Below, piece after piece: positions 4,095-24,163 of a DNA stretch of 42,459 nt. Source of the stretch: Methanomicrobia archaeon JdFR-19 (GTDB taxonomy: Archaea; Halobacteriota; Methanosarcinia; DSM-18856; Methermicoccaceae). The notes beneath the pieces were generated by a model. That model was given only the letters and a program-made list of their open reading frames with translations, did no database searches and had not been told where the DNA came from. The first letter of the stretch is position 1, and each line of letters opens with the position of its first letter. Made by a program: the position numbers and the translations under genes. The DNA lies in the NCBI GenBank assembly GCA_002010075.1, contig MTMG01000022.1, positions 1 through 42,459 of the forward strand. The letters are read 5' to 3'.

Positions 4095-5349
4095 GGAGTT
4101 GAGCGACCTCTGAAAGTGTCTTGCCTTCTTCTATTTCAGCCTTCAATCTCTCCTCAAGTTTTGCAACCTCCAAAGCTCTCTTTGCAGCCTCATACGCCTC
4201 TTCCCTCGGTACAAACACGACTCCATTCTCATCACCAAGCACATAGTCTCCTGTCTTCACTGTCTGTCCCTCTATCACTATCTCAACACCAATCTCCCCA
4301 AATCCCTTAGGGTCTCCCGCATTCGAGACAACCTTCCTCGCAAAGACTGGGAAACACAGCTTCTTTATCTCCTCTACATCCCTCACAGCTCCATGAACAA
4401 CCACACCCCCCAGCCCCTTCTTCATAGCACTCAGAGTTGCAAGTTCTCCCCACACAGCCACATCATCCTGCGATGCTATCACAATAACATCTCCCTTCTC
4501 TGCCATATCTATGGCCTCAACAGGCTTTGCCCAGTCTCCCCCGTACGTGGCAACTGTCAAAACTCTTCCTGCCATCTTACACGGAGTTATTGGTCTGACA
4601 TGTATTGCCGGTTTTCTATGGAGAGCATCTGAAAGATTTGGTGTGGTGACCTTGCATAGAATTTCCAAAATTTCATCTTCTTTTCTCTTTTTTATAGTGT
4701 TTTTTCTCCTTATTTTTTTCATAGCCTCTTTTATCTTGAGAGTTGCTTTTCTCGGGTCTTTCGTCCGAGTGATGGCACTTCCCACTATCACAATATCAAC
4801 ACCTGCGCCCACCACTGCTCCAACTTTATCTGCATCAAGCCCACCTGCAACCGCAACCACCACACCTTCTTCCTTCAACCTCTCAATCACATCCAACCCG
4901 ATTTCCTCCCCCCTCATCTGCTGGTCTATTCCAACATGCACATTTATGATGTCAACGCCCATCGAGGCAAGCTCAAGTCCCCTCTCGATTGGATTCTCAA
5001 CCCCAATCAAATCACCCATCAGCTTAACACCATAACGTCTTGCTGAACGGAGTGCGTCTCTTATCGTTGAGTTATCAGCTTCTCCTAACACACACACAAC
5101 ATCAGCTCCAGACTTTGCAGCTATCTCAACCTCAACCGCCCCCGCATCCATTGTCTTCATGTCTGCAACCACAACATGATTCGGGAATTCCCTTCTGAAT
5201 GTCCTAACCGCCTCCATCCCCTCGCTCTTTATAAGGGGTGTGCCAACCTCTATCCAGTCAGCTCCGCCCATCACACTCTCCCTTGCAATCTTGACAGCTC
5301 TCTCAAGTTCTGTGAGGTCAAGGGCAACTTGAAGATAAGTTTCCATCAT
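4069..5349 (-). CDS. Fused 3-hexulose-6-phosphate synthase / RraA-like protein
   Basis: Residues 1 to about 210 are a hexulose-6-phosphate synthase of the orotidine-decarboxylase barrel family, with the DMKTMD catalytic motif. It condenses ribulose 5-phosphate with formaldehyde, or in archaea without an oxidative pentose phosphate pathway runs in reverse to make pentoses. Residues about 225-426 are an RraA / HMG-aldolase-like domain with GDVIV, GGVVVHGAVRD and GDYVLGDENGVV. The fusion is known in methanogens; the role of the RraA half is not settled. The start overlaps the stop of the HD gene by ATGA, so it ends the TFE - HD - HPS/RraA operon. A second ATG directly follows the first. Confidence 0.92.
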   Translation of the reverse strand: MMETYLQVALDLTELERAVKIARESVMGGADWIEVGTPLIKSEGMEAVRTFRREFPNHVVVADMKTMDAGAVEVEIAAKSGADVVCVLGEADNSTIRDALRSARRYGVKLMGDLIGVENPIERGLELASMGVDIINVHVGIDQQMRGEEIGLDVIERLKEEGVVVAVAGGLDADKVGAVVGAGVDIVIVGSAITRTKDPRKATLKIKEAMKKIRRKNTIKKRKEDEILEILCKVTTPNLSDALHRKPAIHVRPITPCKMAGRVLTVATYGGDWAKPVEAIDMAEKGDVIVIASQDDVAVWGELATLSAMKKGLGGVVVHGAVRDVEEIKKLCFPVFARKVVSNAGDPKGFGEIGVEIVIEGQTVKTGDYVLGDENGVVFVPREEAYEAAKRALEVAKLEERLKAEIEEGKTLSEVAQLLRWEKRKE

Positions 5350-5852
5350 CTTTTCCTCCTGAGCTCTTCAATCTCTCTTCCGAGTCTCTCCACCTTCTCT
5401 ACCACATGTCTCGGAACATTTTTCTTCATGTTCTCAAGTGCCTCGTCAAGTGTCACTCTTCTGCAGTCCTCTATTAGGTTGTCTGCATGAGCTACTATTT
5501 TTTCCTCTAAGGTGCGGGGCATATAATCTCCAGGGGGCAATCCAAGTTTCTAAGCTTCTTCGCTGTCAATTCCCCCTCCTATGTGTCTTTCTATGATAAG
5601 GCAAACTTCCTATGGAAAACCAAACCTGCGAGCGACACATGAGCCAACAATACCATGGGCAATCGAGTGGGTATAACCCCTCCCAATATCATGGAGAACT
5701 GCACCAACGCTCACAAGCTCAACATCGACTTGATGGTCTATTTCGTTTGCAATCTCAACAGCCACCTTCTCAACAGCGATACAATGTCTCACAACACCCT
5801 CGGGACAAACTCTTTTGAGAACCTGAAGAGCCTAATTTCTATCGGATTTCAC
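5346..5852 (-). CDS. TIGR00295-type HD-domain protein with three in-frame TAG codons
   Basis: One continuous frame of 168 residues from a GTG overlapping the TFE stop (GTGA) to a TGA overlapping the next start (ATGA). It is interrupted only by TAG at residues 7 (5832-5834), 81 (5610-5612) and 101 (5550-5552). HD-phosphohydrolase landmarks are spread over all pieces: RHC at 22-24, HDIG at 54-57, H66, ERHIGGG with H90, and AHADN with D124. A functional metal site therefore needs readthrough of all the TAGs. No frameshift and no TAA or TGA occurs. Both junctions keep 4-bp overlaps as in an intact operon, so I call it a recoded gene (UAG probably pyrrolysine), not a pseudogene. Substrate unknown. 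Confidence 0.85.
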
Positions 5853-6352
5853 GAGAATCCCTTCCTCAGCTCTGAAATCCTCTTCTCGATCACCTCAATA
5901 ATTTGCTGATTGTCCCAATGAACCATCATATCCCCGCAATTGGGACATAAAAAGTTTATATCCATCGCCTCTTCAAAAGGAATTCTTATCCCACACTCCC
6001 CACACACATAGAATACTTTCTCCCTCTCGTATTCCAGTCTCCTCTCAAGTTTTCTTAAAAGCTTTCTTCTTTCCCTCTCCAGATACCTCGGGAAATTCTC
6101 AAAACTCAGTCTCCAGTAGTACGTAAGCCAGCCACTTTCCTCGTCCTTCTCCCTCCTGTAAACAGCCAGCTTGTTTTCATACAAGATGAACAGGGTTCTT
6201 CTTACAATGTTCAAGTCAGTATGGGTCATTTCAGCTATCTGCTCGTCTGTGAATTCACCTTCTCTTATTCCCTTGACTACCTCGTATCCGTCTTTTCCGA
6301 GCAATCTCAGTAGAACCTGCTCGACCACCCATTCAAACCCGTCATTAACCAT
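5849..6352 (-). CDS. tfe: Transcription initiation factor E, alpha subunit
   Basis: TFE helps promoter opening by the archaeal RNA polymerase with TBP and TFB. The 167-residue protein has an N-terminal winged helix (about 1-90), a basic linker rich in R and K (about 90-112) and a C-terminal zinc ribbon with C117, C120, C136 and C139 (CGEC and CPNC). It is the first gene of an operon with the HD protein and HPS-RraA. A TATA box at 6378-6387 lies 26-35 bp before its ATG, so the transcript is leaderless or nearly so. Confidence 0.95.
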   Translation of the reverse strand: MVNDGFEWVVEQVLLRLLGKDGYEVVKGIREGEFTDEQIAEMTHTDLNIVRRTLFILYENKLAVYRREKDEESGWLTYYWRLSFENFPRYLERERRKLLRKLERRLEYEREKVFYVCGECGIRIPFEEAMDINFLCPNCGDMMVHWDNQQIIEVIEKRISELRKGFS

Positions 6353-6377
6353 AAACGATAATTAATATCGGGTTTCA

Positions 6378-6387
6378 ATATATATAT
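6378..6387 (-). promoter_or_regulatory. TATA box of the tfe operon
   Basis: ATATATATAT centred about 30 bp before the tfe ATG at 6352. It shares a 74-bp divergent intergenic region with the next TATA box at 6406-6413. Confidence 0.55.
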
Positions 6388-6405
6388 CAATTTTCACTAT
6401 ACACT

Positions 6406-6413
6406 TTTATATA
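6406..6413 (+). promoter_or_regulatory. TATA box of the isocitrate/isopropylmalate-type dehydrogenase
   Basis: TTTATATA, 23-30 bp before the ATG at 6436. The spacing predicts a leaderless transcript starting at that ATG and argues against the upstream in-frame TTG at 6427. Confidence 0.65.
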
Positions 6414-6435
6414 TGAGCCTCTTCTATTGGGCAAC

Positions 6436-7455
6436 ATGAAGAAGCTTGCAGTGATAAAGGGGGACGGAGTTGGACCTGAACTCATAGAGCATGCTCTTGA
6501 TGTTATGGAACAGACAGAACCAAATGTGGAGATAATCGTGTGTGATGCGGGATACGAGTGGTGGCAAAGACATGGTGGAAAGGCTTTGATACCTGATGAG
6601 ACGTGGGACATACTCAAAGAATCGGATGCTTGCTTCAAAGGTGCAACCACAACGCCCCCGGATGTAGATGCACCAAAGTCTGTTGCTGTTTCGATAAGAC
6701 AGAGCTTCGATTTGTATGCGAACGTGAGACCCATAAGGAGTTTTCCAAACACAAAAGCACCACTCGGGGAGGTGGAGTTTGTATGTGTGAGAGAGGCAAC
6801 TGAGGGATTGTATTTTGGAGAGGAGTTCTATGTATCTGACGATGTTGCACTTGCTATTCGAAAGGTATCCAGAAAAGCTTGTGAGAAGGTAAGCACATAT
6901 GCATTTTCCCTCGCCCAAAGGAAAGGGTGGGACACTGTTGTCGCAATTCACAAAAGCAACATCCTCAAAAGAACATGCGGCCTGTTTCTTGAGACCGTCA
7001 AAAACGTCAAGGAATACTTCCCAGAAGTTGACCTGTGGGAGTACCATGTGGACAATGTGGCTCAACAGATCATAAAGAATCCCCAGCTCTTCAATCAGAA
7101 GGTATTGTTATCAACCAACCTCTTCATGGACATAATATCTGAGGAGTGTTCTGCGCTCGTTGGCAGTATCGGAATGGTGTACAGTGGAAACTTCGGAGAC
7201 TCGTATGCGATGTTTGAAGCAGCACACGGCTCAGCTCCAAAGTACAAAGGGCAGGATAAGGTCAACCCGACCGCCACCATACTCGCAGGTGCATGGGCTC
7301 TCGAGTATTTGGGAGAGCAAGAAGCTTCAGAGGCGATATTCAAGGCGGTTGAAGGTGTGATAGCCGAGGGGAAATATACAACGTATGACCTTGGAGGCTC
7401 TGCAAAGACATCTGAAATGGTTGAGGCAATCAAGGCAAGGTTGAAAAATCAATGA
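6436..7455 (+). CDS. Isocitrate/isopropylmalate-family NAD(P) dehydrogenase
   Basis: A 339-residue beta-decarboxylating dehydrogenase with GDGVGPE at the N-terminus, DLYANVRP near residue 95, the catalytic Lys in HKSNI and the metal-binding GNFGDSYAMFEAAHGSAP region. The substrate loop reads SVAVSIRQSFDLYANVRP, closer to isocitrate dehydrogenases (Ser at the first position) than to isopropylmalate dehydrogenases (Glu-rich loop). Isocitrate is my first guess; 3-isopropylmalate or homoisocitrate remain possible. No leu or aks genes are adjacent. The last 26 bp overlap the convergent HIT gene. Confidence 0.85.
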   Translation: MKKLAVIKGDGVGPELIEHALDVMEQTEPNVEIIVCDAGYEWWQRHGGKALIPDETWDILKESDACFKGATTTPPDVDAPKSVAVSIRQSFDLYANVRPIRSFPNTKAPLGEVEFVCVREATEGLYFGEEFYVSDDVALAIRKVSRKACEKVSTYAFSLAQRKGWDTVVAIHKSNILKRTCGLFLETVKNVKEYFPEVDLWEYHVDNVAQQIIKNPQLFNQKVLLSTNLFMDIISEECSALVGSIGMVYSGNFGDSYAMFEAAHGSAPKYKGQDKVNPTATILAGAWALEYLGEQEASEAIFKAVEGVIAEGKYTTYDLGGSAKTSEMVEAIKARLKNQ

Positions 7456-7858
7456 GTCCCTTTGGCATATTCTTAACTTTCTCACTCAGTTCCTCGTCTA
7501 TTGGGAATGCCGACTCAAATCCCTTCCCTTCATCTCCATAGCGGGGGAGGATGTGAACATGCACATGTTCTATGAGCTGTCCAGCTGAGCGTCCGTTGTT
7601 CAGACCAATGTTGAAGCCGGTCGCCCCCAACTTTTTCATCAACAACTCTGCACACTTTTTAACATCTCTGAACAGCTCACACACCTCCTCATCACTCAGC
7701 TCAATCAGGCTCGATACATGTCTCTTCGGAACAACAAGGGTGTGTCCTCTTGTTCTTGGGTTAATGTCGAGAAAGGCAATCACGCCTTCATCCTCATATA
7801 CTATGGATGATGGAATGTTTTTGTTTATGATCTCACAGAATATGCACTTCATAAACAT
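7430..7858 (-). CDS. HIT-family nucleotide hydrolase
   Basis: A 142-residue histidine-triad protein with CIFCEI at the N-terminus, the FLDINPRTRGHTLV segment and the triad HVHVH near residue 117. HIT proteins hydrolyse adenylylated or dinucleotide substrates. The extra N-terminal Cys pair suggests a bound zinc, as in many HIT proteins. A TATA box at 7875-7884 lies inside the lysA-HIT gap, so it probably has its own transcript. The start could be the first ATG or the ATG two codons later. Confidence 0.93.
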   Translation of the reverse strand: MFMKCIFCEIINKNIPSSIVYEDEGVIAFLDINPRTRGHTLVVPKRHVSSLIELSDEEVCELFRDVKKCAELLMKKLGATGFNIGLNNGRSAGQLIEHVHVHILPRYGDEGKGFESAFPIDEELSEKVKNMPKGLIDFSTLP

Positions 7859-7874
7859 CTGTTATAACGAATTT

Positions 7875-7884
7875 TTTATTTAAA
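7875..7884 (-). promoter_or_regulatory. TATA box of the HIT gene
   Basis: TTTAAATAAA on the minus strand, 17-26 bp before the ATG at 7858. Confidence 0.5.
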
Positions 7885-7894
7885 CTCAATGCAC

Positions 7895-9160
7895 TCAAAG
7901 AAGTCTTTCAGGAATTGTCTGCGTATGTATCAGGTCTGAAAATGTTTCCCTCCTCCTTATGAGTTCTGCCCTCCCATTCTGAACCAGAATCTCAGCACAC
8001 CTTGGCTGTCCGTTGTACTGAGAGCTCATGGCGAATCCATATGCACCTGCATCAAGCACAGCAATCACATCTCCCTTTTCAATCTTTGGCAGTCTTCTGT
8101 CCTTTGCAAGTATGTCTCCGCTCTCGCATATCGGTCCCACTATCATATACGTCTTATCGGGTGGTACATCTGCCTTGTTTGCCACAACCACATGATGATA
8201 TGCATCGTACATCACTGGTCTTATCAGGAGATTGAAACCAGCATCCACAGCCACGAATTTCCCCTTCACGCTGTTCACCCTCGTTAACAGCACAGTGGAA
8301 TCTCCGACCACATACCTCCCCGGTTCAAGTACCAGCTTCGGATATACCCCGTTCTCCTTACACCATTCTTCGAATACTGGAAGGACCGCATCAGCCAATT
8401 CCTGGGGGGTTGGAGCTTTCTTGTCCTTCTCATATGGAATCCCAAGGCCAGAACCCATATCCACAAACTCAAGCTTGATTCCCATGTTCAGAAGTTCCTT
8501 CGCGATGCCAAGCACCTTTTCAAGAGCCTCGGCGAAAGGTGACACTGAGAGTATCTGAGAGCCTATGTGGAAGTGTATTCCCACCGGTACAACACCTGGC
8601 AGTTCAACAGCCCTCTCATACGCATTAACTATCTGCTCTGACGGAATTCCAAATTTCGATGTTCTGAGGCCGGTTGCAATCTTTGGATGGGTTTGGGGAG
8701 ATACATCTGGGTTCACCCTGAACGCAATCCTCACCTCTCTATCCCCTGCTATCGTAGAAAGACTCTCAAGCTCCATCACTGAATCCACTGAAACCATGAC
8801 CCCACTCTCAACTGCTCTCCTCAAATCCTCATCGCTCTTCGAATTCCCATTGAAAAGAATCTTATCTTTCGGAAAGCCAGCAAGCAAAGCCATATAGAGC
8901 TCTCCAGACGAAAAAACATCGGCGCCTGCCCCTTCCTGTGCAATTATTCTCATTATAGCCAGATTTCCATTTGCCTTTACAGCGTATAAAAGTTCAGCGT
9001 TAGGAAATGCCTTCTTTATTGTTCTCAGATTATCTCTTATCCTCTGTTCATGAGTAACATACAGGGGGGTGCCAAACTCTTCTGCAATCTCAACACAATC
9101 AGCCCCCCCTATAAAGAGATGCCCATGCCTGCATTCAAGATGCCCCTCGATTTCGAACAT
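7895..9160 (-). CDS. lysA: Diaminopimelate decarboxylase
   Basis: LysA converts meso-diaminopimelate to lysine, the last step of lysine synthesis. The 421-residue protein has the PLP lysine in YAVKANGN (K62), HIGSQ, EPGRYVVGDS and the CESGD motif of the partner-subunit active site. I chose the ATG at 9160 (MFEIEG) because it aligns with the family N-terminus and has a TATA box 23-36 bp upstream. The open frame further upstream runs into the divergent tRNA-Leu and is not coding. Confidence 0.96.
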   Translation of the reverse strand: MFEIEGHLECRHGHLFIGGADCVEIAEEFGTPLYVTHEQRIRDNLRTIKKAFPNAELLYAVKANGNLAIMRIIAQEGAGADVFSSGELYMALLAGFPKDKILFNGNSKSDEDLRRAVESGVMVSVDSVMELESLSTIAGDREVRIAFRVNPDVSPQTHPKIATGLRTSKFGIPSEQIVNAYERAVELPGVVPVGIHFHIGSQILSVSPFAEALEKVLGIAKELLNMGIKLEFVDMGSGLGIPYEKDKKAPTPQELADAVLPVFEEWCKENGVYPKLVLEPGRYVVGDSTVLLTRVNSVKGKFVAVDAGFNLLIRPVMYDAYHHVVVANKADVPPDKTYMIVGPICESGDILAKDRRLPKIEKGDVIAVLDAGAYGFAMSSQYNGQPRCAEILVQNGRAELIRRRETFSDLIHTQTIPERLL

Positions 9161-9182
9161 GTGATAATGATATGATGAGATG

Positions 9183-9196
9183 TTTTTATATTTAAT
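9183..9196. promoter_or_regulatory. Shared TATA element of lysA (minus) and tRNA-Leu (plus)
   Basis: TTTTTATATTTAAT. It lies 23-36 bp before the lysA ATG on the minus strand and 21-34 bp before the tRNA-Leu 5' end on the plus strand, so one nearly symmetric element can serve both. Confidence 0.5.
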
Positions 9197-9216
9197 TGAT
9201 GTTGATAATAAGATGG

Positions 9217-9298
9217 GCGGGAGTTGCCGAGTGGAAAAGGCGCAGGGTTTAGGTCCCTGTCCCATAGGGGTTCGCAGGTTCGAATCCTGCCTCCCGCA
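9217..9298 (+). tRNA. tRNA-Leu (anticodon UAG)
   Basis: 82-nt class II tRNA with acceptor GCGGGAG / CTCCCGC, discriminator A, a long variable arm and T-loop TTCGAAT. The anticodon loop TTTAGGT gives UAG at 9250-9252, which reads leucine codons CUA/CUN. CCA is not encoded. It does not read the UAG codon. Confidence 0.95.
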
Positions 9299-9410
9299 TG
9301 AACAGGAAAGGTTTTATTTGACTGACTTGATTAACATGCTCACACAGACTCTTCATAATCAATGTTAAATAAGTTTGGTTATTTATAACTTGGTGTTAAT
9401 TTTTAGAAAA

Positions 9411-9420
9411 TTTTTAATAA
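9411..9420 (+). promoter_or_regulatory. TATA box of the CobN-like gene
   Basis: TTTTTAATAA, 23-32 bp before the ATG at 9443, predicting a leaderless mRNA. Confidence 0.45.
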
Positions 9421-9442
9421 TAGTAGTGTAGTATGGGATTTC

Positions 9443-12400
9443 ATGGTGGCACGCAGTTATATCTGTATGCTCATTTTTCTAATGGCAGGGGTGTCTGGCT
9501 TAGTATGTGATTCAGTGCATGGTTCAGAATCTGCACTTGATTTTTCTAACAATTCCACCAACTTTGCATACATCACGGATACCTCTCCTCTCCCCCTTCC
9601 ATCCAACGACACGATAAATGTGAGTGTTTATAACTTGACCGATGTGTTTTCGGGGATGAGTGCAGATATTGTGCTTGTTGATGTGGATGGAAACAACGTC
9701 TCACTTATCCAGAATGCCATAGATAGCGGAAACATCACAGGAGATATTGTACCCCTCACAGAAGATGCAAAATATCTATCAACCGTCGATGATGAAATAC
9801 TGGAAAATGTATCTTCCTACTGGACATACTCCAAAGAGAATCTTAGAAGACTTTTGGTGTATCTCGCTGTTGAACTCGATGGAAGGACTGACTTAAAAGT
9901 TGAGTCTCCTCTCCGAACGTCTATATTGTTGGTAGTACTGCCAAACGCAGACACAATATCAGGTATCATTGATGAGCTTGGTGAGTATGGGGTAGATTGC
10001 AGGTTTGCAAACTTAACAGCTCTCTCGATGGTTGGAAGGAACGAGATGTATGCACAATACGTGATAGACGAGATAGAGAACTTCAACGGAGACATCATAT
10101 TTGAGTACGTTGCCGACAGACAGTATTCCCTATATAAAAACGCCATCGAAGATGCAAGCAATAGAGGTATAAAGGCTCTAGGTATTGGTGGTTTCTCTTC
10201 ACAGCAGATGTATGCCTACAACGTAAACAACTCGTCCACTATTCTAAAAACACTTTTCAGCAGAAGCTCAAAAAGTCCGGGATACTGGAGAACCGTTTTG
10301 CCAGAAAATCTCAAAAGAATGTTCATATACATCGCATGGGCTGTTGATGATAGGACTGACCTCGAGGAGTATGTTAAACCCACAATGGTTGTTCCACCAT
10401 CCGCTCTCTACCATCCAGATGCCCCTTACTGTACCTACATGAACGACTCGTATGACCATCTGTTCCTTTCTTGGGATGATTTCTTCGATTGGTATGTTGA
10501 TAGTGGGCATTACAACCCCGAAGGAAAATGGATTGGCATTGTGATGTATTACAGGGACTATCAGGAAGGCAAGCTCTACACAGAGGATGCCATGATAAGA
10601 ATGCTGGAGGACGATGGTTACAATGCAGTTGCATGTTATGTTCCTTGGGGCAATCCTATAAACACCTTCTTTGTGACAAACAATACATCGAAGGTGGATG
10701 CTATCATTAGTTTCTTGTTCTTCGGGGCAAATGGGCCATGGGAAGTTCTTGACGAGAGTGATGTGCCTGTACTAAAAGCTGTCTCCCTCAGTTATCAGAC
10801 GTATGATGAGTGGCAGAGCAACCCCCATGGTCTTCACGGTCTTGCGATAACATGGAAGGTTGACCAGCCAGAGATGGATGGTGTGATTTGTCCGATTGCC
10901 ACAGAGGCAAGGATGACAGAGGACGACTATATGCGTTATCCTATAAACGATAGACTCAGAAGGATTTTAGGTCAAGCTGAAGCCTACGCAAATCTGAGAC
11001 ATGTGCCAAACTCTGAAAAGAGAGTGGCAATCATATACTTCAACCATCCCCCTGGAAAACAGGATATTGGAGCGAGTTATCTCAACCTCTTCGAGTCTCT
11101 CGAAAATGTGCTGAGTGCTCTGAATTCATCAGGATATGATGTGAAGCCAATGAACTCAACCGAACTCCAAAACACGATATTGGTATATGGACGTAATGTA
11201 GGTTCATGGGCTCCAGGCGAGTTGGAGGAGTTGGCTGACCGGGTTATATTATTGGATGCATCTCTGTACGAGAGATGGTTCTCTGAGCTTCCTCAAGAGG
11301 TACAGGAGGAAGTAATCAATGTATGGGGACAACCTCCCGGCGATATGATGGTTGTTGAAAGAGATGACAGGAAATACATTCTAATTCCAGCCATTCAGCT
11401 TGGGAATGTGCTTCTTGCACCACAACCCGCAAGGGGATGGGAAGAAGACCTCGGGCGCCTCTATCATGACCTGACGATTCCACCCCCCCATCAGTACATA
11501 GCGTTTTATCTCTGGCTACAGAAATCGCCAGATGAGGGGGGATTTGGGGCTCATGCTGTTGTACATATGGGGAGACATGGAACGCTTGAGTGGTTGCCTG
11601 GCAAGATGGTGTGTTTGAATGAGACAAGCTATCCAGATTTGTTGTTGGGCAACATCCCTGACATTTATCCATACATAGTTGATGGAGGTGGGGAGGGGAT
11701 ACAGGCAAAGAGGAGAGGATATGCAACGTTGATTAGTCATCTCACCCCACCAATCGCACACAGCGGTCTATACGGCGAGCTTCAGAACCTCAAGTACAAT
11801 CTTGAACGATATCAACACTACAAAGAAATCGGTTATGCAGAAGGCATGAATCAAACAAGACAGTCAATAATAGAAGTGGTATCTGATATGCATCTTGGCG
11901 AAGAGTTGAACCTCACACTGACAAACAATACGTTCGAGGACGATGTGGAGAGAATTGTGGAATACATAGAGAATATAGCATCTGAGACAATACCCTACGG
12001 AACACACACCCTTGGCGTTGGACCCACTGGAGAGAGAGCTGCAATGTTCATAGAAACCATGTATACAACCGAGCTGATGAATCTTTCATACACACTTCTA
12101 AATATAAGTGAGGTAAGTGAGTTGGAGGGTCTTGAAAATCGTTCAAAGGCTGAGAACATGTCCAAATGGCTTGCAGAGGAGATCGTGAATTGTAGCACTT
12201 TTGAGCAGTTCAAGAATTCTGTTGAGCAAAAGATTAACAAGTCCATTGATGATGAGCTTCTCAACAGTACAATCAGCAATACATTTGAGAACTGCAAGGA
12301 AACCCTTGCTCTGCTCAATGCTTCGGGCGAACTCGAGAATCTGATACAGGCTCTTGATGGGAGATATGTACCACCAAGTGAACAGGGCGACCCTGTACAG

Positions 12401-14107: not shown

Positions 14108-14142
14108 AAAGATTAAAATTATTTTTTAATTTTTAATTTAGC

Positions 14143-15474
14143 ATGTCAGATTTGGATGTTATCAACCCATCCAACGAACAGATAATAACAAGGGTTGAAT
14201 GTGCGACAAAGGATGATGTGAAAAGGATAATCGACGAGGCAAGAGAGTTCTTTGATAATTGCAGGTGGACTGCCAAAGAAAGAAGCAAAATACTCCTCAG
14301 CGTTTCGCATCTCGTAAAAAGACATTCTGAAGAACTTGCAACCCTCGAATCTCTGAATACCGGAATGCCCTTAAAAGAAGCAAGAAAGAGGGTAGAAAGC
14401 TGTAGGAAGTTTCTAAACTACTATGCACGACTTTCATTACTTCCCGATGAAGAGGACGATATAAGATACGAGCCGGTTGGAGTAGTTGGGGCAATAGTGC
14501 CATGGAACTTTCCTCTCCTCATGGCTGTGTGGAAAGTAGCACCATCTCTCGCAGCTGGAAATGCAACCGTCTTAAAACCATCCTCTCATACACCACTCAC
14601 ATCTCTGAAGTTGGTGGAGTTGTTCGAAAAAGCAGGATGTCCGAAAGGTGCTTTAAATGTGATTATCGGGGGGGCAACGGTGGGGAGAGAATTATGCTCT
14701 TCTAAGAACGTAGATAGGATATCATTCACAGGCTCAACAGAAACTGCCAAAGAAATTGTAAAACTCTCATCATCGAACCTGAAGAAACTAACGCTGGAGT
14801 GTGGTGGGAAGTGTGCTTAGATAGTGTTGAACGATGCTGACATCGGCAAGGTGATAGAGGGAGTGATGTTTGCATCGTTCTTCAACACGGGACAGGTGTG
14901 TACTGCTGCTTCACGACTTCTCGTCCCTTCGGAGCTCCATGACAGGATTGCAAAGGAGGTTGGGGAGAGAGCATCAAAATTAAGGTTGGGAGATCCATTC
15001 TCAGACCCGGATCTGGGGCCATTGACAACCAGAGACCAGTTGGAAAAGGTTTCATACTATTCGAGTCTGGGAAGGGATGAAGGAGCTAATCTGGAATGTG
15101 GTGGGTATTAGAAAAAGGAAAAAGGATTTTTCTTCCCGCCCACCGTATTCTCAAATGTAGAGCCTGAGATGAGGATTGCGCAAGAGGAGATATTCGGACC
15201 GGTGCTGTGCATCATCCCGTACGAAGGAGTGGACGAGGCTGTTGAAATCGCAAATGGAACACCCTATGGACTTGCTGCAGGTGTATGCTCAACCAACATC
15301 AAAAAAGCGATGGATGTTGCGAGAAGGTTGAGATGTGGGAGGGTTTGGATAAACACATACCACCTATTTCCACCTGAAGCACCATTTGGTGGATATAAGG
15401 AGAGTGGTATAGGAAGGGAACATGGCATAGTCGGATTTAGAGAGTATCAAGAGATAAAGCACATAATGAAGTGA
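14143..15474 (+). CDS. NAD(P)-dependent aldehyde dehydrogenase with two in-frame TAG codons
   Basis: One 443-residue frame ending at TGA, interrupted only by TAG at residues 226 (14818-14820) and 323 (15109-15111). Family landmarks before the first TAG are VPWNFP, KPSSHTPL, FTGSTETAK and LECGGK with the general-base Glu. The catalytic Cys in NTGQVCTA (residue 253) lies between the TAGs. QEEIFGPVL, GLAAGV and PFGGYKESGIGREHG follow the second. The first TAG falls where most homologues have the Asn or Pro of GGKSPN; the second is in the variable loop before the PTVF segment. Termination at the first TAG would remove the nucleophile. I interpret both as sense codons (probably pyrrolysine). Substrate unknown. 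Confidence 0.88.
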
Positions 15475-15515
15475 TAGGGTAATTGAGGGGTCTTTTTTCA
15501 TCTTCTCTCACAACT

Positions 15516-15525
15516 CTTTTAAATT
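15516..15525 (+). promoter_or_regulatory. TATA box of argS
   Basis: CTTTTAAATT, 21-30 bp before a GTG at 15546. The spacing supports a leaderless GTG start and removes the 21 poorly conserved codons of the longer reading frame. Confidence 0.5.
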
Positions 15526-15545
15526 GGAAAATACAAGATGGTGCC

Positions 15546-17261: not shown

Positions 17262-17263
17262 AT

Positions 17264-17271
17264 ATTTATAT
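17264..17271 (+). promoter_or_regulatory. TATA box of tRNA-Glu
   Basis: ATTTATAT, 28-35 bp before the tRNA 5' end, directly after the argS stop. Confidence 0.5.
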
Positions 17272-17298
17272 AGATGTGTGAAAGGTATTTCCCTTGGA

Positions 17299-17373
17299 GC
17301 TCCGGTAGTGTAGTCCGGCCAATCATGCGGGACTCTCACTCCCGCGACTGGGGTTCAAATCCCCACCGGAGCA
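17299..17373 (+). tRNA. tRNA-Glu (anticodon CUC)
   Basis: 75-nt tRNA with acceptor GCTCCGG / CCGGAGC, discriminator A, anticodon stem CGGGA / TCCCG with loop CTCTCAC (anticodon CUC) and T-loop TTCAAAT. CCA is not encoded. The sequence is the typical euryarchaeal tRNA-Glu form. Confidence 0.95.
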
Positions 17374-17454
17374 TTTCATTGTACTTTCACAAGATTTTCA
17401 AAAGGAGTTTCTTGTATTTTGCAGAGATCCACTATATCCACACCCGATACTTTG

Positions 17455-18723
17455 TTAAAGGTGCGAAGAGAAGTAGCGCTCTACAGTGCGCAGAGCACAG
17501 AAACTCCCGCACATCGTACACCCTCCTCCCGAAGGTGAGAACCTTGCTCTCGCACGCAATCCCCCATCCAACGCAAGCGAAAACTGAGATTCCCAGTTAC
17601 TCCTTGAACGTTCGACAGCCATTTTCTGCTCATCCGCCGAGAGCCCATATTTCATGAGGTCTCCTACATGAGCAGCTATGCGTGTGGCTATGAGTCCATT
17701 TCTAAGCTCTTCTGCAGTTGGCAGTGACAAGTGTTCAGCCGCCGTTATACAGCAGATGTAGTCAGCGCCTGCACCTGATGCCATAGCAGAGCCAATGGCT
17801 GCCGCTATGTGGTCATATCCCACTGCAAGGTCGGTTGGGAGAGGGCCGGCAACGAAAAGTGGTCTGGGACACCTTTTCTTGAAAGTCCTAACTGCAGATG
17901 CAATGCTAGATGGAGGGATGTGTCCACCTAATCCCTCAACTATTACCTGAACTCCTTCTTCATTTGCACGATTGGCGAGTTTTCTGTTTACCTCGAATTC
18001 AAGAAGCTCTGGCGAATCTTTACTCAAATTGAATTTGGCAAAATCCACTACACAGCCACTTCGTAAGGTGTTGCCGAGTACCAGCACACCATCTTCTTTT
18101 CTCAGCAGTTTGATGAACTCATCGAACCACTCGTGGAATGGATTCTCATTGTTAGTATGAATCATGTGGGCAAGTGTCATCGAGCCACCCTTAGACACCA
18201 TGGGCATCGTACGCTTCCTGAGTGCTGGAAGCATTTCACGGGTGAAACCAGCATATAGCACAAGCGAGCAAGCTTCATGTAGCTGTTTTTGTGCTACATC
18301 GATGATAGCATCCACCTCGAGTGATTCGATGCCATTCTCTGACACTGCCTGATAGATTGGAATGGTGGTAAGGGGCAACTGGGCAGCACTATGAACCCGT
18401 TGCCTCATCTCATCCAAGTCTCCTGCCATCGAGAGGTCTGTGATAGTATCGGCACCCAATTCCCTTGCAATGCGTGCCTTCCCTATCTCCTCTATACACG
18501 CCTCAGTTATATCACCAGCATCACTTGCACTCGAGGACGTGCCTACATTTACGTTTACTCTTGTGGGTGCCCCTTCCCCTATCAGTATATTCTCAAACAA
18601 CACCAGTCTTCCATCGGCAACTCGGCTGTGGGCTAATGATATGTCCATATCAACGTCTCTTGCAGCTTTTACAAGCTTCTTTGACTTTCTCCCACTCTTT
18701 ACCTTATCGATGAGCGTTTTCAT
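17455..18723 (-). CDS. thiC: Phosphomethylpyrimidine synthase family (ThiC-like radical SAM)
   Basis: ThiC rearranges aminoimidazole ribotide to HMP phosphate for thiamine. The 422-residue protein shows VNVNVGTSSS, TDLSMAGD, EGLGGHIPP and AGPLPTDLAVGYDHI, all typical of the fold. The C-terminal cluster motif reads CTMCGSFCA, i.e. C-x2-C-x3-C, one residue shorter than the C-x2-C-x4-C of enterobacterial ThiC. The paralogue BzaF, which makes 5-hydroxybenzimidazole for cobamides from the same substrate, is an alternative I cannot exclude. No TPP riboswitch is visible upstream. Start at the ATG at 18723, with weak GAG-rich leader. Confidence 0.85.
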   Translation of the reverse strand: MKTLIDKVKSGRKSKKLVKAARDVDMDISLAHSRVADGRLVLFENILIGEGAPTRVNVNVGTSSSASDAGDITEACIEEIGKARIARELGADTITDLSMAGDLDEMRQRVHSAAQLPLTTIPIYQAVSENGIESLEVDAIIDVAQKQLHEACSLVLYAGFTREMLPALRKRTMPMVSKGGSMTLAHMIHTNNENPFHEWFDEFIKLLRKEDGVLVLGNTLRSGCVVDFAKFNLSKDSPELLEFEVNRKLANRANEEGVQVIVEGLGGHIPPSSIASAVRTFKKRCPRPLFVAGPLPTDLAVGYDHIAAAIGSAMASGAGADYICCITAAEHLSLPTAEELRNGLIATRIAAHVGDLMKYGLSADEQKMAVERSRSNWESQFSLALDGGLRARARFSPSGGGCTMCGSFCALRTVERYFSSHL

Positions 18724-18795
18724 GATTTCTCACACTCAACGCCTTTCAACAACCAATGATTTAGTAGTATCCCTCAAGACCACCAAAGCATTCTT

Positions 18796-20895
18796 ATGAT
18801 GAAATGCAAACGAACACATATGGAAAATGCTCGGCTCAGAATAACTGGCATGAAATGTGCAATGTGTGCAAAGACAATTGAATCCTCACTCACAAAACTG
18901 GATGGAATTGAGAGGGTGAATGTTAATCTTGCAACTGAATATGCACACATAGTTTACGACCCTTTAAAGATAACACTTGACGATATTGTAAAAGAAATTG
19001 AAAAACTTGGTTATGGTGCTGAAATAGAGAAGAGAGCTGACTCACAAGAAAAAAAGGATATCAAGAAATTATTGGTTGCAATCATAGCTGGTTCAGTATT
19101 GTTTGCAGTGCCTCTCCCTTCCACCATCCAGATTTTGATTGCCACACCCACATTGCTCTATGCGGGCATAGACATATTCAGTTCAGCCTTTCGGACTCGA
19201 ACTCTGAACATGGATGTGATGTACTCGATGGGTGTTGGAAGCGCATACATTGCAAGCGTGTTAAGCACACTGAAATTCTTTCCTCCCGAATACACATTCT
19301 ATGATACATCTGTGATTCTGCTTGCATTTCTCCTCATAGGGAGAACACTTGAAGAAAGAGCAAAGGGAAAGACAGGAGAGGCAATAAAGAAACTCATGGA
19401 GCTTCAGGTAAAGAGTGCAACTCTTCTGAGAGATAATAAAGAGGTCAAGGTCAGGGTAGAGGAGGTGAAGGAGGGGGACATTGTAATCGTGAGACCGGGA
19501 GAGAAGATACCAGTTGATGGACTGGTTGTGGGTGGTGTGAGTTATGTTGAGGAGGCGATGATAACAGGTGAGCCGATGCCAAAGCTGAAAGAGATTGGAG
19601 ATGAGGTGTTCGCTGGTACGATTAACAAGAGTGGTGTGCTGAAGATAAGGGCAAGTGGAGAGGAAACTTTGCTATCTCAAATAATAAAAACGGTTGAGGA
19701 GGCTATTGGAAGCAAGCCCCCAATTCAGAGATTTGCAGACAAAATCGTTTCTTATTTCATTCCAGTGGTTCTGAGTATCGCCCTCATATCCTTCGCATAT
19801 TGGTATACAAAAGGAGATACGATGTTCGCATTCACAACACTCATTGCAGTTCTTGTGGTTGCATGTCCATGTGCGTTTGGACTCGCAACACCAACCGCAT
19901 TGACAGTTGGGATGGGAAAAGGAGCAGAGTATGGCATACTCATCAAGAATGGAGAGGTGCTTGAGATAGCAAGAAACGTGAGAACAGTTGTGTTTGATAA
20001 AACAGGAACGCTCACAAAAGGAGAGATTGAAGTGAGTGAGGTAAGAACTTTGGACGAGTCGTATGACGTTCTAAAACTTGCAATGATTGCAGAGAAGAAC
20101 AGTACGCATCCGATTGCTGAGGCTATAATGAGATATGGTAGTAGTCCAAACAAAGTAGAGGAGCCAGAAATGTTTGAAGAGGTGCCCGGAGAGGGTGTGG
20201 TGGCGGTTTATAAGGGGTCAAAAATTGCGGTTGGAAACAAGAGGTTGATGGAGAGAGTTGGAGTAGACATAGAAGGAGAGAATAATGAAAATGAAATAAT
20301 AGTCGCTCTAAATAACAAAGTCATTGGAGTTATTGAGGTAAAGGATGAGGTAAAGGAAAGTGCAAAAGAAGTGGTAGATGAACTCCACAGAATGGGCAAG
20401 AAAGTTGTGATGATAACTGGGGATAGTAGAAAGAATGCCGAATTGGTTGCAAAGGAACTGAACATAGACGAGTTCTTTGCAGAGGTTCTCCCCCACGAAA
20501 AGGCAGAGATAGTTAGAAAGATGGAGGGGGTTGTTGCATTTGTTGGAGATGGCATAAATGATGCTCCAGCACTTGCTCAGGCAGATGTTGGTATAGCCAT
20601 AGGCACCAAGAAAATAGATATTGCGGTTGAGAGTGGAGACATAGTCCTTGTAAGGGACAATCTGAAAGACGTTGTGAGAGCCATAAAACTCAGTGAGAGA
20701 ACCTACAAAAAGATAAAACAAAACATATTCTGGGCTATTGTGTACAACACGATTCTGATACCAGTGGCTGCCGGAATTCTGTATCCATTTTTTGGAATAA
20801 TTTTCAGACCCGAATGGGCTGGAATGGCGATGGCGATGAGCAGTGTGAGCGTTGTCACAAACTCTCTTCTTCTGAGGTGGTCTGATGTACTGTGA
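18796..20895 (+). CDS. copA: Cu(+)-type P1B ATPase with N-terminal HMA domain
   Basis: A heavy-metal translocating ATPase of 699 residues. The HMA domain (about 12-75) has the metal motif GMKCAMC. The membrane motif CPC (VVACPCAFG) marks the P1B-1 Cu+/Ag+ class. DKTGTLT, THP and GDGINDAPALAQADVGIAIG are the phosphorylation and nucleotide motifs. It exports monovalent copper. The ATG at 18820 (MENARLRITG) is an equally good start; the frame is open to 18796. A small HMA protein follows 156 bp downstream and is the likely chaperone. Confidence 0.95.
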   Translation: MMKCKRTHMENARLRITGMKCAMCAKTIESSLTKLDGIERVNVNLATEYAHIVYDPLKITLDDIVKEIEKLGYGAEIEKRADSQEKKDIKKLLVAIIAGSVLFAVPLPSTIQILIATPTLLYAGIDIFSSAFRTRTLNMDVMYSMGVGSAYIASVLSTLKFFPPEYTFYDTSVILLAFLLIGRTLEERAKGKTGEAIKKLMELQVKSATLLRDNKEVKVRVEEVKEGDIVIVRPGEKIPVDGLVVGGVSYVEEAMITGEPMPKLKEIGDEVFAGTINKSGVLKIRASGEETLLSQIIKTVEEAIGSKPPIQRFADKIVSYFIPVVLSIALISFAYWYTKGDTMFAFTTLIAVLVVACPCAFGLATPTALTVGMGKGAEYGILIKNGEVLEIARNVRTVVFDKTGTLTKGEIEVSEVRTLDESYDVLKLAMIAEKNSTHPIAEAIMRYGSSPNKVEEPEMFEEVPGEGVVAVYKGSKIAVGNKRLMERVGVDIEGENNENEIIVALNNKVIGVIEVKDEVKESAKEVVDELHRMGKKVVMITGDSRKNAELVAKELNIDEFFAEVLPHEKAEIVRKMEGVVAFVGDGINDAPALAQADVGIAIGTKKIDIAVESGDIVLVRDNLKDVVRAIKLSERTYKKIKQNIFWAIVYNTILIPVAAGILYPFFGIIFRPEWAGMAMAMSSVSVVTNSLLLRWSDVL

Positions 20896-21028
20896 GTGTG
20901 GTACCAGAGAATCGTTTATTTCAACGAACATGTCTGTTTCAGGAAAGAGATGTAAAGACCATAATCGGAGTCGAAGAAGGGGATGTGCGACTGATTTGTA
21001 TTGCAATATGATAAGGAAGGGGTTGTAA
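20885..21028 (+). CDS. Possible 47-residue cysteine-rich peptide between copA and the HMA protein
   Basis: The 156-bp gap after copA holds an ATG-started frame overlapping the copA end. It encodes C3, C5, C23, H26, C34 and C40, a spacing that could bind metal. A competing frame in the same stretch (GTG at 20892, 39 residues, containing RDVKTIIGVEEGD) has a more ordinary composition. I recognise no family for either and no ribosome site decides between them. Both may be non-coding. Confidence 0.22.
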   Translation: MYCECGTRESFISTNMSVSGKRCKDHNRSRRRGCATDLYCNMIRKGL

Positions 21029-21051
21029 ATGATATCTTGGGAGGTTTGAAC

Positions 21052-21246
21052 ATGAAAATAAAGATTAAATTGAGGGGGTTGTGTTGCAATGGATGTTTGA
21101 GTGTTGTGAAAGCGGCACTTAAAGATGCGGGGGCTGTGGTTGAGGATCTGTCTTTTGATGAGGCTGTGGTTGAGTTCGATGGAGATGCTAACAAACTGGT
21201 GGATGTTATAAAGGAAGTGGGATACGAGGCAGAATTGGTCGAATAA
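21052..21246 (+). CDS. Small HMA-domain metallochaperone (CopZ-like)
   Basis: A 64-residue single heavy-metal-associated domain with the metal motif GLCCNGC near residues 9-15 and a typical beta-alpha-beta end (DVIKEVGYEAELVE). I chose the ATG at 21052 because GGGAGGT lies 6-12 nt before it. The frame is open further up to a TTG at 21001. Placement behind copA suggests it delivers Cu+ to that pump; the Met of the usual MxCxxC is replaced by Cys, so metal preference may differ. Confidence 0.85.
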   Translation: MKIKIKLRGLCCNGCLSVVKAALKDAGAVVEDLSFDEAVVEFDGDANKLVDVIKEVGYEAELVE

Positions 21247-21260
21247 ATTTACCATATATG

Positions 21261-21270
21261 CTTTAAATAA
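21261..21270 (+). promoter_or_regulatory. TATA box of hisB
   Basis: CTTTAAATAA, 22-31 bp before the hisB ATG at 21292. Predicts a leaderless mRNA. Confidence 0.5.
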
Positions 21271-21291
21271 TATGAAGATGTAGTCTGAAAT

Positions 21292-21870
21292 ATGCAGAGA
21301 AGGGCTAAAGTGAAGAGGGAGACCGCTGAAACGTATGTATCTGTTGAAATCAACATAGATGGGAGTGGAAAGTTCGAAATATCAACAGGAATACCATTTT
21401 TCGACCACATGCTGTCCGCCATGGCAAGACATGCAACATTTGATTTAACCGTTGATGCGAGGGGAGATGTTGATGTTGAGGCACATCACACGATTGAGGA
21501 TGTTGCAATTGTTCTTGGGAATGGAATAGCAGAGGCTCTCAAAGATAGAAAAAACATAGTGAGATATGGATATGCACTGGTCCCGATGGACGATAGCTGT
21601 GCGTAGGTTGCAATCGATGCTGGAATGAGAAGCTACCTCGTATTCGATGTATCATTTACATCCCCATACATTGCTGGTATCGAGACACAAATTTTCGAAC
21701 ACTTCTTCGACACTCTGACAAAAAATGCGAAAATGACCCTCCATATGAAAGGATACGGAAAGAGTAATCACCACATCATTGAATCTCTGTTCAAAGCGGT
21801 TGGACTTGCAATGGCGATGGCTTTCAAACAGGACTCTGAGAAAATAATGAGCACAAAGGGTGCACTTTGA
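21292..21870 (+). CDS. hisB: Imidazoleglycerol-phosphate dehydratase with one in-frame TAG codon
   Basis: HisB dehydrates imidazoleglycerol phosphate in histidine synthesis. The frame of 192 residues (the normal monofunctional length) runs from ATG to TGA with a single TAG at residue 105 (21604-21606). The first metal motif EAHHTIED lies before it and the second, NHHIIESLFKA, after it; both are needed for the Mn sites. The TAG lies just after VPMDDSCA and before VAIDAGMRSYLVFD, a region where homologues are continuous (DDxLxxVAIDxxGRxYxVF). Recoding explains this better than decay. The helicase start lies 1 nt past the stop. Confidence 0.92.
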
Positions 21871-21871
21871 G

Positions 21872-24163
21872 ATGGAAAACCTGACTGGAAACTTCCAAGT
21901 ATATCTGTATGAGACATCTAAGAAGGTATGGGTGTATATCGGGAAGAAGAAAATAAACAAAGGAATACTCTGGTTGGAGGACACACCAAAGGGACCAAGA
22001 ATCAAGAAGTTCATGGTTGAAAATCAACCTGTGAACCCGAAGGAGTTTTTGAAACTCATAAAAAACTCGAGAGTGTGCTTGCTTGAAACTGCAAGGAGTG
22101 TCAGCTCTTCTAAACTTGTGCATATGCTTGCAGACTACCAAATTCCATTTGAGACATTGAAAGTTTGCAGGTTCTGTCTGATGAGACATAAAATAACTCC
22201 GAAGTTATCGATCCGCTATATGGGGGAAGAGATTTGCGAGGAATGTGCGAAGAGGGAGTTGAGGAATTATATCGTATCAGAGTACTCTGTAAGAGTCCTG
22301 AGGAAGTGTAAAGACCTTGACCATGTAATAAACCTAATTGAAGGAAAAATAAACAAAGAATTAAAGCAATTTACACTTTTTGATGTAATTTCACCAAAAA
22401 CAGAGACAATCAGTAGAGAAGAGATTCCTGACAGTGAGATTCCTGACTTCGTAAAGAAAAAACTCCCGAAAACACTTCTGCCTGTCCAGACTCTCGCATT
22501 GAAAGCCGGAGTTCTGAGAGGAGAAAATATATTGGTGGTATCAGAAACTGCAAGCGGAAAAACGCTTGTGGGGGAGATGGCTGGAATGAAGATGGTTTTT
22601 GAGGGGAGGGGAGTATTTCTTTATCTTGTTCCCCTCGTCGCACTTGCTCTCCAGAAGTATGAACAGTTCAAGGAGAGGTGGGGTGATATAGTCGGTCTGG
22701 TGATTGGAAGAACGAGAATAAGAACAAAACATACGGAGTATGACATCGGGATGAAGTCTGATGTGAGCAGAAATGTTGTGGTGGGGACGTACGAGGCTGT
22801 TGACCAGCTCATAATGTCTGGATTCAGATTTCAAAAAGTAGGATGTATTGTTGTAGATGAGATACACATGCTCATGGATGACGAAAGGGGACACAGACTC
22901 GATGGACTTATTGCAAGACTGAGATACCTCTTCCCAGATGCGCAATTCATATACCTCTCTGCAACTGTCGGCTTTCCAGAAGAGCTTGCAAAGATGCTTG
23001 GGGCGAGACTTGTTAAGTACGAACACAGACCGATACCGTTGAAGAGGTATGTTGTTCCATGTGTTGCCCGTAGGAAGAGCAGAATCATAAAGAGAATAGT
23101 GGACGAGGCATGGTCAGAAGTTTCTTCCAAAGGCTACAGAGGTCAGACGATAGTATTCACTAACTCAAGGAGGAGGTGTGAGGAACTTGCAAGGGTGGTT
23201 GGTGGAGTTGCATACCACGCTGGGCTATCAAAGGAGAGGAGGAAAGAGGTCCAGAAGAGGTTTGAAGATGGAAAGATAAAATGTGTTGTTACAACATCTG
23301 CACTCGGTGCCGGGGTTGATTTTCCTGCCTCCTGTGTGATATTTGACTCGCTCAGAATGGGAGCTGAAGAACTGACGCAACATGAGTTTAACCAGATGCT
23401 TGGCAGAGCTGGAAGACCAGACTATCATGATGAGGGGAGTGTATTTCTGCTTGTTTCTCCAGAGGAGGAGGAAATTGCTGATGTGCTTCTGCACGGTGGA
23501 GTTGGAAGATGCGATGTGATGTGTGGTGGAGAGAGTGAGGAAGTGCTTGCAATGTGTTCAATAACAGACGATGTGAGTGAGTTGAAGAAGATGTGTTCGA
23601 TGATGGTGAGGTATGTTGATGTGGATAAATCGCTGAGAGAACTGGAGGGTATGGGAATGCTAAAACGGGAGGGGAACTGTGTAAAACTTACCCGCCTTGG
23701 AAGAACTGCTTCTCTCTCCTTCCTTCCCCCATAGCATGTGCTTTGTCTTATGGAGATGAAAGACGAGGATGTTATTGATATTATCTCGACGCTCCTACCC
23801 TTTGAGAATGTGTATGTGTGTGGCTTTCCCATGCTTTCGGGAGTTCTTGACAGGATTTACAGAGGGGAGAGGGAAGATAAGAAGATCTTGAAGTTTGCGA
23901 AAGAGTTTTTGAGCTGTGGGTGCAAGGAGAGTCCATACTGTGGATGCCCCCCTAAGAAGTTGTCAAAACTCATCGTAGAACTGAGAATGGAAGGACTTGA
24001 CCCTGCTGAAATTGTGAAAGAACTTGAAGAATACGGAATAGAGGCATATCAAGCTGACATATTCGACCACCTTACTCAGTGTGTTATACTATTAGAAGCG
24101 TTTGAGAAGTTGGTCGATAGAGAGGATGTGAAAGAGATAAGACAAACCATAGAAGGTCATTAA
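21872..24163 (+). CDS. DUF5814-type archaeal DEAD/DEAH helicase with one in-frame TAG codon
   Basis: A superfamily 2 helicase of 763 residues in one frame to TAA, with TAG at residue 621 (23732-23734). Zinc-finger-like cysteines lie near 99-125 (CRFC, CEEC). Walker A is TASGKT near 226, DEIH near 329, SAT near 366 and GRAGRP near 512. After the TAG comes a conserved-looking tail with a Cys cluster (SCGCKESPYCGC) and EGLDPAEIV..YGIEAYQADIFDHL, which I know as the normal C-terminus of this archaeal helicase family, not a separate gene. No start with a ribosome site is evident between the parts. The GTG at 21860 is an alternative start. Substrate (DNA or RNA) unknown. Confidence 0.85.

Follow-up and report, generated by a model that had tools for sequence, protein, structure and literature searches.

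UAG is very probably a pyrrolysine sense codon throughout the genome of Methanomicrobia archaeon JdFR-19

An archaeal 'Pyl code', in which all TAG codons specify pyrrolysine, has reportedly been described by Kivenson and colleagues (in Science, 2025) and is said to have been confirmed by proteomics; among the papers searched here, none names either this 'Pyl code' or the JdFR-19 lineage considered here. Earlier reviews described archaeal pyrrolysine as nearly confined to the methylamine methyltransferases and TAG as a rare stop codon (PMC3941956, PMC9723677), with a share of less than 6% of stops in pyrrolysine-containing archaea (PMC9723677). In tRNA-His guanylyltransferase, pyrrolysine is reported to have arisen through neutral evolution (Heinemann et al. 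2009, cited in PMC9723677). A split form of pyrrolysyl-tRNA synthetase (PylRS), the sN group, is known from bacteria such as Desulfitobacterium hafniense and has since been found in some archaea (PMC11467909). Here we analyzed a 42,459-nucleotide contig (MTMG01000022.1, hereafter the window) of the uncultured JdFR-19, for which a preliminary description made from the letters alone had proposed that UAG is a sense codon, probably for pyrrolysine. The decoding machinery, the stop codon counts and the comparison with a second genome of the genus all support that proposal, and UAG very probably serves as a pyrrolysine sense codon throughout the JdFR-19 genome, with UGA and UAA as the stop codons.

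The window is contig C12 of an assembly of 1,288,683 bases in 27 contigs (G000, 89.75% complete), which was placed in the class Methanosarcinia, in a family of its own among the genomes compared. The sole close relative among them, G001, belongs to the same genus and was assembled separately (about 0.8 Mb, 59% complete), with proteins about 94% alike, and the remaining relatives, including Methanosarcina-like families, are related at class level only. Genes were called again with TAG as a sense codon, independently of the open reading frames behind the preliminary description, in a genome-wide sample of 472,537 bases, comprising the window and 22 further stretches and covering approximately 37% of the genome. 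The 442 genes obtained ended in TGA (280) or TAA (142) or were open (20). The preliminary description had counted no TAG end among 33 genes of the window (TGA 23, TAA 10); our own call agreed for the 31 closed genes there (TGA 23, TAA 8, TAG 0), and its proposal of a wider count was borne out, as TAG was essentially unused as a terminator across the sample. Inside genes, 115 in-frame TAGs were found in 81 of the 442 (about 18%). They were spread along the gene length (15, 16, 8, 9, 8, 10, 8, 14, 15 and 12 in successive deciles), with 7 located at most 10 codons from the N-terminal end and 9 equally close to the C-terminal one, and 57 genes had a TAG at least 30 codons from either end. Single Pfam domains run across a TAG in, among others, ribonucleotide reductase, 3-dehydroquinate synthase II, a class-III aminotransferase, NAD kinase, an ADP-dependent sugar kinase, a pterin-binding enzyme, a glycosyl transferase of family 3 and an NAD-dependent epimerase, and a Rad50-like SMC protein is also among the TAG-containing genes.

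If pyrrolysine were limited to the methylamine methyltransferases, these other in-frame TAGs would be pseudogenes or assembly errors, and the two classical pyrrolysine proteins, MtmB and MttB, do carry one TAG each in JdFR-19, at codon 202 in the MtmB. Random decay, as the preliminary description had argued, should also yield TAA, TGA and indels; in pseudogenes or sequencing errors these should be as common as TAG, and this was not the pattern found. The in-frame TAGs exceed what chance would produce. Sites with a strong coding signal on both sides of the triplet (strong internal sites, scored by the same procedure for the three triplets) made up 45 of 115 TAGs, 9 of 192 TAAs and 43 of 387 TGAs, the last figure including adjacent genes joined in frame. 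In the control genomes, strong internal TAGs numbered 1 of 13 in G003, a pyrrolysine-containing member of Methanosarcinaceae, and 4 of 30 in G006, where no PylSn was found. G003 in addition uses TAG as the terminator of 9 of its 169 closed genes, which matches the published share of TAG stops, and has almost no internal TAG.

A flank test by codon usage alone was noisy, and orthology was therefore used in its place, with 147 aligned pairs (44,244 codons) drawn from 491 kb of G001. At 43 of the 50 aligned JdFR-19 TAG sites, G001 also had TAG; compared with the mean of 0.826 for all codons, this fraction of 0.86 indicates that TAG is as conserved as an average codon. The seven changed sites read CAG (3), GAG (2), TAT (1) and TAA (1) in G001, and seven TAGs present only in G001 stood opposite TCG (2), GAG, GAA, AGT, CAG and AAG. 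At the 117 aligned true gene ends, TAA and TGA were exchanged seven times and TAG never appeared. The only TAG-TAA exchange was observed in a gene on L017, in which TAG lies two codons ahead of TGA and G001 has TAA. The ratio of nonsynonymous to synonymous substitution rates (dN/dS) was 0.145 ahead of the first TAG, 0.159 in the stretches between TAGs and 0.123 beyond the last one, compared with 0.081 in TAG-free genes. Constraint is therefore no weaker behind the last TAG than ahead of the first. The low value past the TAGs indicates that the downstream DNA is translated in frame and selected. Pseudogenes and sequencing errors were thus ruled out by dN/dS, by conservation in the separately assembled G001 and by the scarcity of in-frame TAA and TGA, and a restriction of pyrrolysine to the methyltransferases is extremely improbable. 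The higher dN/dS of TAG-containing genes indicates that TAGs occur preferentially in somewhat less constrained proteins; together with the varied residues of homologs at these sites, this suggests that most TAGs would represent tolerated surface substitutions rather than catalytic pyrrolysines.

The genes pylT, pylS and pylBCD, which the preliminary description had pointed to as the machinery to look for elsewhere in the genome, are all present. ARAGORN identified a tRNA-Pyl with anticodon CUA, which shows the 6-bp anticodon stem, 5-nt D-loop, 3-nt variable loop, T-loop without TTC and single base separating the acceptor and D stems that are the structural hallmarks of tRNA-Pyl (PMC3941956); an Rfam search at pylT gave no match. 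Curated NCBIfam models identified PylSn (91.8 bits, cut-off 51), PylSc (298 bits, cut-off 178), PylB (418 bits, cut-off 348), PylC (335 bits, cut-off 248) and PylD (222 bits, cut-off 150). These genes lie at three places on two contigs: pylT, pylSn and pylSc are consecutive on contig C6, pylB-pylC is located about 46 kb away, and pylD is found on C18. Genes resembling those of the heterodisulfide reductase subunits HdrB and HdrC adjoin pylT-pylSn-pylSc. The open frame of PylSn is 160 amino acids long, and PylSc lies 14 bases downstream of it in another frame. In a phylum sample of 247 genomes, PylSn passed the cut-off in 37; JdFR-19 alone had it as a separate protein, and the remaining 36 have a fused PylS in frames of 406-553 amino acids. 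PylSc scored best against the PylSc of D. hafniense (286 bits) and lower against the PylRS of M. mazei (192 bits), whose residues N346 (binding) and Y384 (gate) appear to be kept (in the motifs 'MLN' and 'VYGE'), and it was 94% identical to a match in the metagenome-assembled genome 'Methanosarcinales archaeon isolate B74_G9' (QMVI01).

UAG might instead have been reassigned to a canonical amino acid such as Gln or Glu through a mutated tRNA, as the CAG (Gln) and GAG (Glu) replacements at several sites in G001 could suggest. These codons, like AAG, TCG and TAT, are however mere one-step neighbours of TAG, and the residues of homologs vary at the TAG sites (E, D, S or T in HisB; N and R/K in the aldehyde dehydrogenase). 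A second CUA tRNA, which could carry a canonical amino acid, was not found among the 45 other tRNA genes (Rfam RF00005 matches with typed anticodons), so that tRNA-Pyl is the only CUA tRNA found and such a reassignment is very improbable. An ARAGORN call of a 'Glu' tRNA with a 7-nt intron proved a misreading; judged by eye, the gene is an intron-containing tRNA-Tyr (GUA). The window itself has a tRNA-Leu with anticodon UAG, which decodes CUA rather than UAG and is therefore no amber tRNA and irrelevant here.

The seven in-frame TAGs that the preliminary description had reported in four window genes were all confirmed by translation, and family or domain matches extend past most of them (Table 1); in none of the four genes does a TAA, TGA or frameshift interrupt the frame that is read through TAG. 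The HD-domain protein matched TIGR00295 over residues 6-164 (187 bits, cut-off 172) as well as Pfam HD; its G001 ortholog (91% identity) has TAG at two of the three sites, and dN/dS past the last TAG was 0.21. The aldehyde dehydrogenase (ALDH) family protein matched PF00171 over residues 4-441 (531 bits), and its alignment with PDB 7kqv was unbroken through both TAG sites. HisB matched NF002111 over residues 2-192 (257.7 bits, cut-off 231), its G001 ortholog was 96% identical with TAG at the same site, and dN/dS past the TAG was 0.05, while the HisB matches of 39 relatives outside the genus had no TAG. In the helicase (93% identity to the G001 ortholog), PF00270 and PF00271 precede the TAG and PF19131 (DUF5814, 98 bits, residues 673-764) follows it. 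Overall, five of the seven window sites (those in the HD gene, hisB and the helicase gene) could be compared with G001, which had TAG at four and GAG at one.

Table 1. Locations of the genes, TAG codons and tRNAs discussed in the text. Positions without a prefix are those of the window; L003 is a stretch of contig C6, and G000 is the JdFR-19 assembly.
Feature	Location	Strand	Description
HD-domain protein (TIGR00295 family)	5346..5852	-	168 amino acids, three in-frame TAG
TAG, HD protein residue 7	5832..5834	-	G001 also TAG
TAG, HD protein residue 81	5610..5612	-	GAG (Glu) in G001
TAG, HD protein residue 101	5550..5552	-	G001 also TAG
tRNA-Leu, anticodon UAG	9217-9298	+	
ALDH family protein	14143..15474	+	443 amino acids, two in-frame TAG
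TAG, ALDH residue 226	14818..14820	+	Asn in solved homologs
TAG, ALDH residue 323	15109..15111	+	Arg/Lys in solved homologs
hisB, imidazoleglycerol-phosphate dehydratase	21292..21870	+	192 amino acids, one in-frame TAG
TAG, HisB residue 105	21604..21606	+	E, D, S or T in relatives; TAG in G001
DEAD-box (Hel308/Ski2-like) helicase with C-terminal DUF5814	21860..24163	+	767 amino acids, one in-frame TAG
TAG, helicase residue 625	23732..23734	+	TAG in G001; dN/dS past TAG 0.23
HdrB/HdrC-like genes	L003:2-900	-	
pylT	L003:946-1016		tRNA-Pyl (cta)
PylSn / PylSc	L003:834-1313 / 1327-2172 (G000:C6 ~52,900-54,225)		Separate genes, different frames
Gene with near-terminal TAG	L017:1733-2605	-	
MtmB-family protein	C14:15182-16522 (L067)		No in-frame TAG
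MtmB-family protein	C9:38669-39991 (L069)		No in-frame TAG
aRF1	C4:108494-109708 (L110)		

The preliminary description had placed the TAGs in housekeeping genes without a link to methylamine use. This holds in so far as many of the genes concerned lie outside methylamine metabolism, but MtmB and MttB are among the TAG carriers as well, so that the system is better described as having spread beyond methylamines than as being unlinked to them, and pyrrolysine keeps its usual primary use in JdFR-19. Two further MtmB-family proteins were also observed (Table 1). McrA, the alpha subunit of methyl-coenzyme M reductase (PF02249), was not found in JdFR-19 or G001, both of which are incomplete genomes; with MtmB and MttB present, the gene content would be compatible with the genus possibly being a non-methanogenic methylamine user.

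For pyrrolysine-using archaea, it has been proposed that tRNA-Pyl competes with the release factor (PMC8211752). In JdFR-19, charged tRNA-Pyl would insert pyrrolysine at UAG and would outcompete the archaeal release factor aRF1 at every such codon, leaving aRF1 to terminate at UAA and UGA; UAG codons would originate by point mutation from CAG, GAG, AAG, TCG and TAT at tolerant positions, and the individual codons would then be retained or lost by drift. The aRF1 gene was found with its NIKS motif intact. Alignment with 23 relatives revealed 29 lineage-specific changes at otherwise conserved columns, without clear clustering at the decoding site, and these may be simple divergence; one of them replaces the Asp directly after the YHC motif, invariant in the 23 relatives, by Ala in JdFR-19 and G001 alike.

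Alternatively, decoding could be ambiguous or conditional, with UAG read as pyrrolysine part of the time or upon induction of the pyl genes and otherwise terminating. Such conditional use has a precedent in the bacterium Acetohalobium arabaticum (PMC8211752), aRF1 is retained, and the weaker constraint on TAG-containing genes (dN/dS 0.12-0.15 vs 0.08) is what would be expected if TAG were costly. Against this, TAG occurs in genes that serve basic biosynthesis and replication (hisB and those of ribonucleotide reductase, 3-dehydroquinate synthase II, NAD kinase and the Rad50-like SMC protein), and it is gone as a terminator, TAA and TGA ends never changing to TAG. We therefore consider conditional decoding unlikely, and a full sense codon remains the preferred reading. 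Several points nevertheless weigh against the latter. The presence of aRF1 with an intact NIKS motif makes some UAG termination possible; up to about 11 of the 442 genes continue past the last TAG with a low-scoring tail no longer than 16 codons and may end in genuine TAG stops, and among these the near-terminal TAG on L017 is likely a former or still working terminator. Moreover, the stop counts cover 37% of a genome that is about 90% complete, and the inserted residue, almost certainly pyrrolysine, is deduced from genes rather than from protein data.

Turning a stop into a sense codon by adding a further amino acid to the code is one of the rarest ways in which genetic codes change, and the process becomes measurable in this genus, which has the complete system and is represented by two genomes in which individual TAGs have visibly been gained and lost. 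In practical terms, gene predictions for the genus under translation table 11 truncate about one gene in 5-6 at a TAG, enzymes of central biosynthesis included, and the split synthetase and tRNA-Pyl are candidate tools for genetic code expansion.

Compared with the known systems, JdFR-19 resembles the archaeal 'Pyl code' in having TAG as a sense codon in many genes other than methyltransferase genes, no TAG terminator and complete pyl machinery, and is set apart from it by the split PylRS, the location of the pyl genes at three places and the failure to find McrA in the genus. With Methanosarcinaceae it shares the class, the families of pyrrolysine biosynthesis proteins and tRNA, and the TAG in MtmB and MttB, but there TAG is still a low-frequency stop and PylS is one fused protein; a restricted recoding of the Methanosarcina type was accordingly rejected for JdFR-19, as TAG lies in many genes, has essentially no role as a minor stop, and PylS is unfused. 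The pyrrolysine codon of tRNA-His guanylyltransferase likewise lies in a gene unrelated to methylamines, but this is a single gene, compared with approximately 18% of genes here. D. hafniense, whose genome retains TAG as a stop, has separate PylSn and PylSc as JdFR-19 does, and its PylSc is the one to which that of JdFR-19 scores nearest. It is conceivable, and we suggest it only tentatively, that JdFR-19 represents a non-methanogenic lineage of Methanosarcinia, outside the published Pyl-code lineages, which acquired a bacterial-type split PylRS cassette apart from Methanosarcinaceae before UAG became a full sense codon. The case of JdFR-19 itself fits a genuine alteration of the genetic code, one for which archaeal examples have been described only recently.

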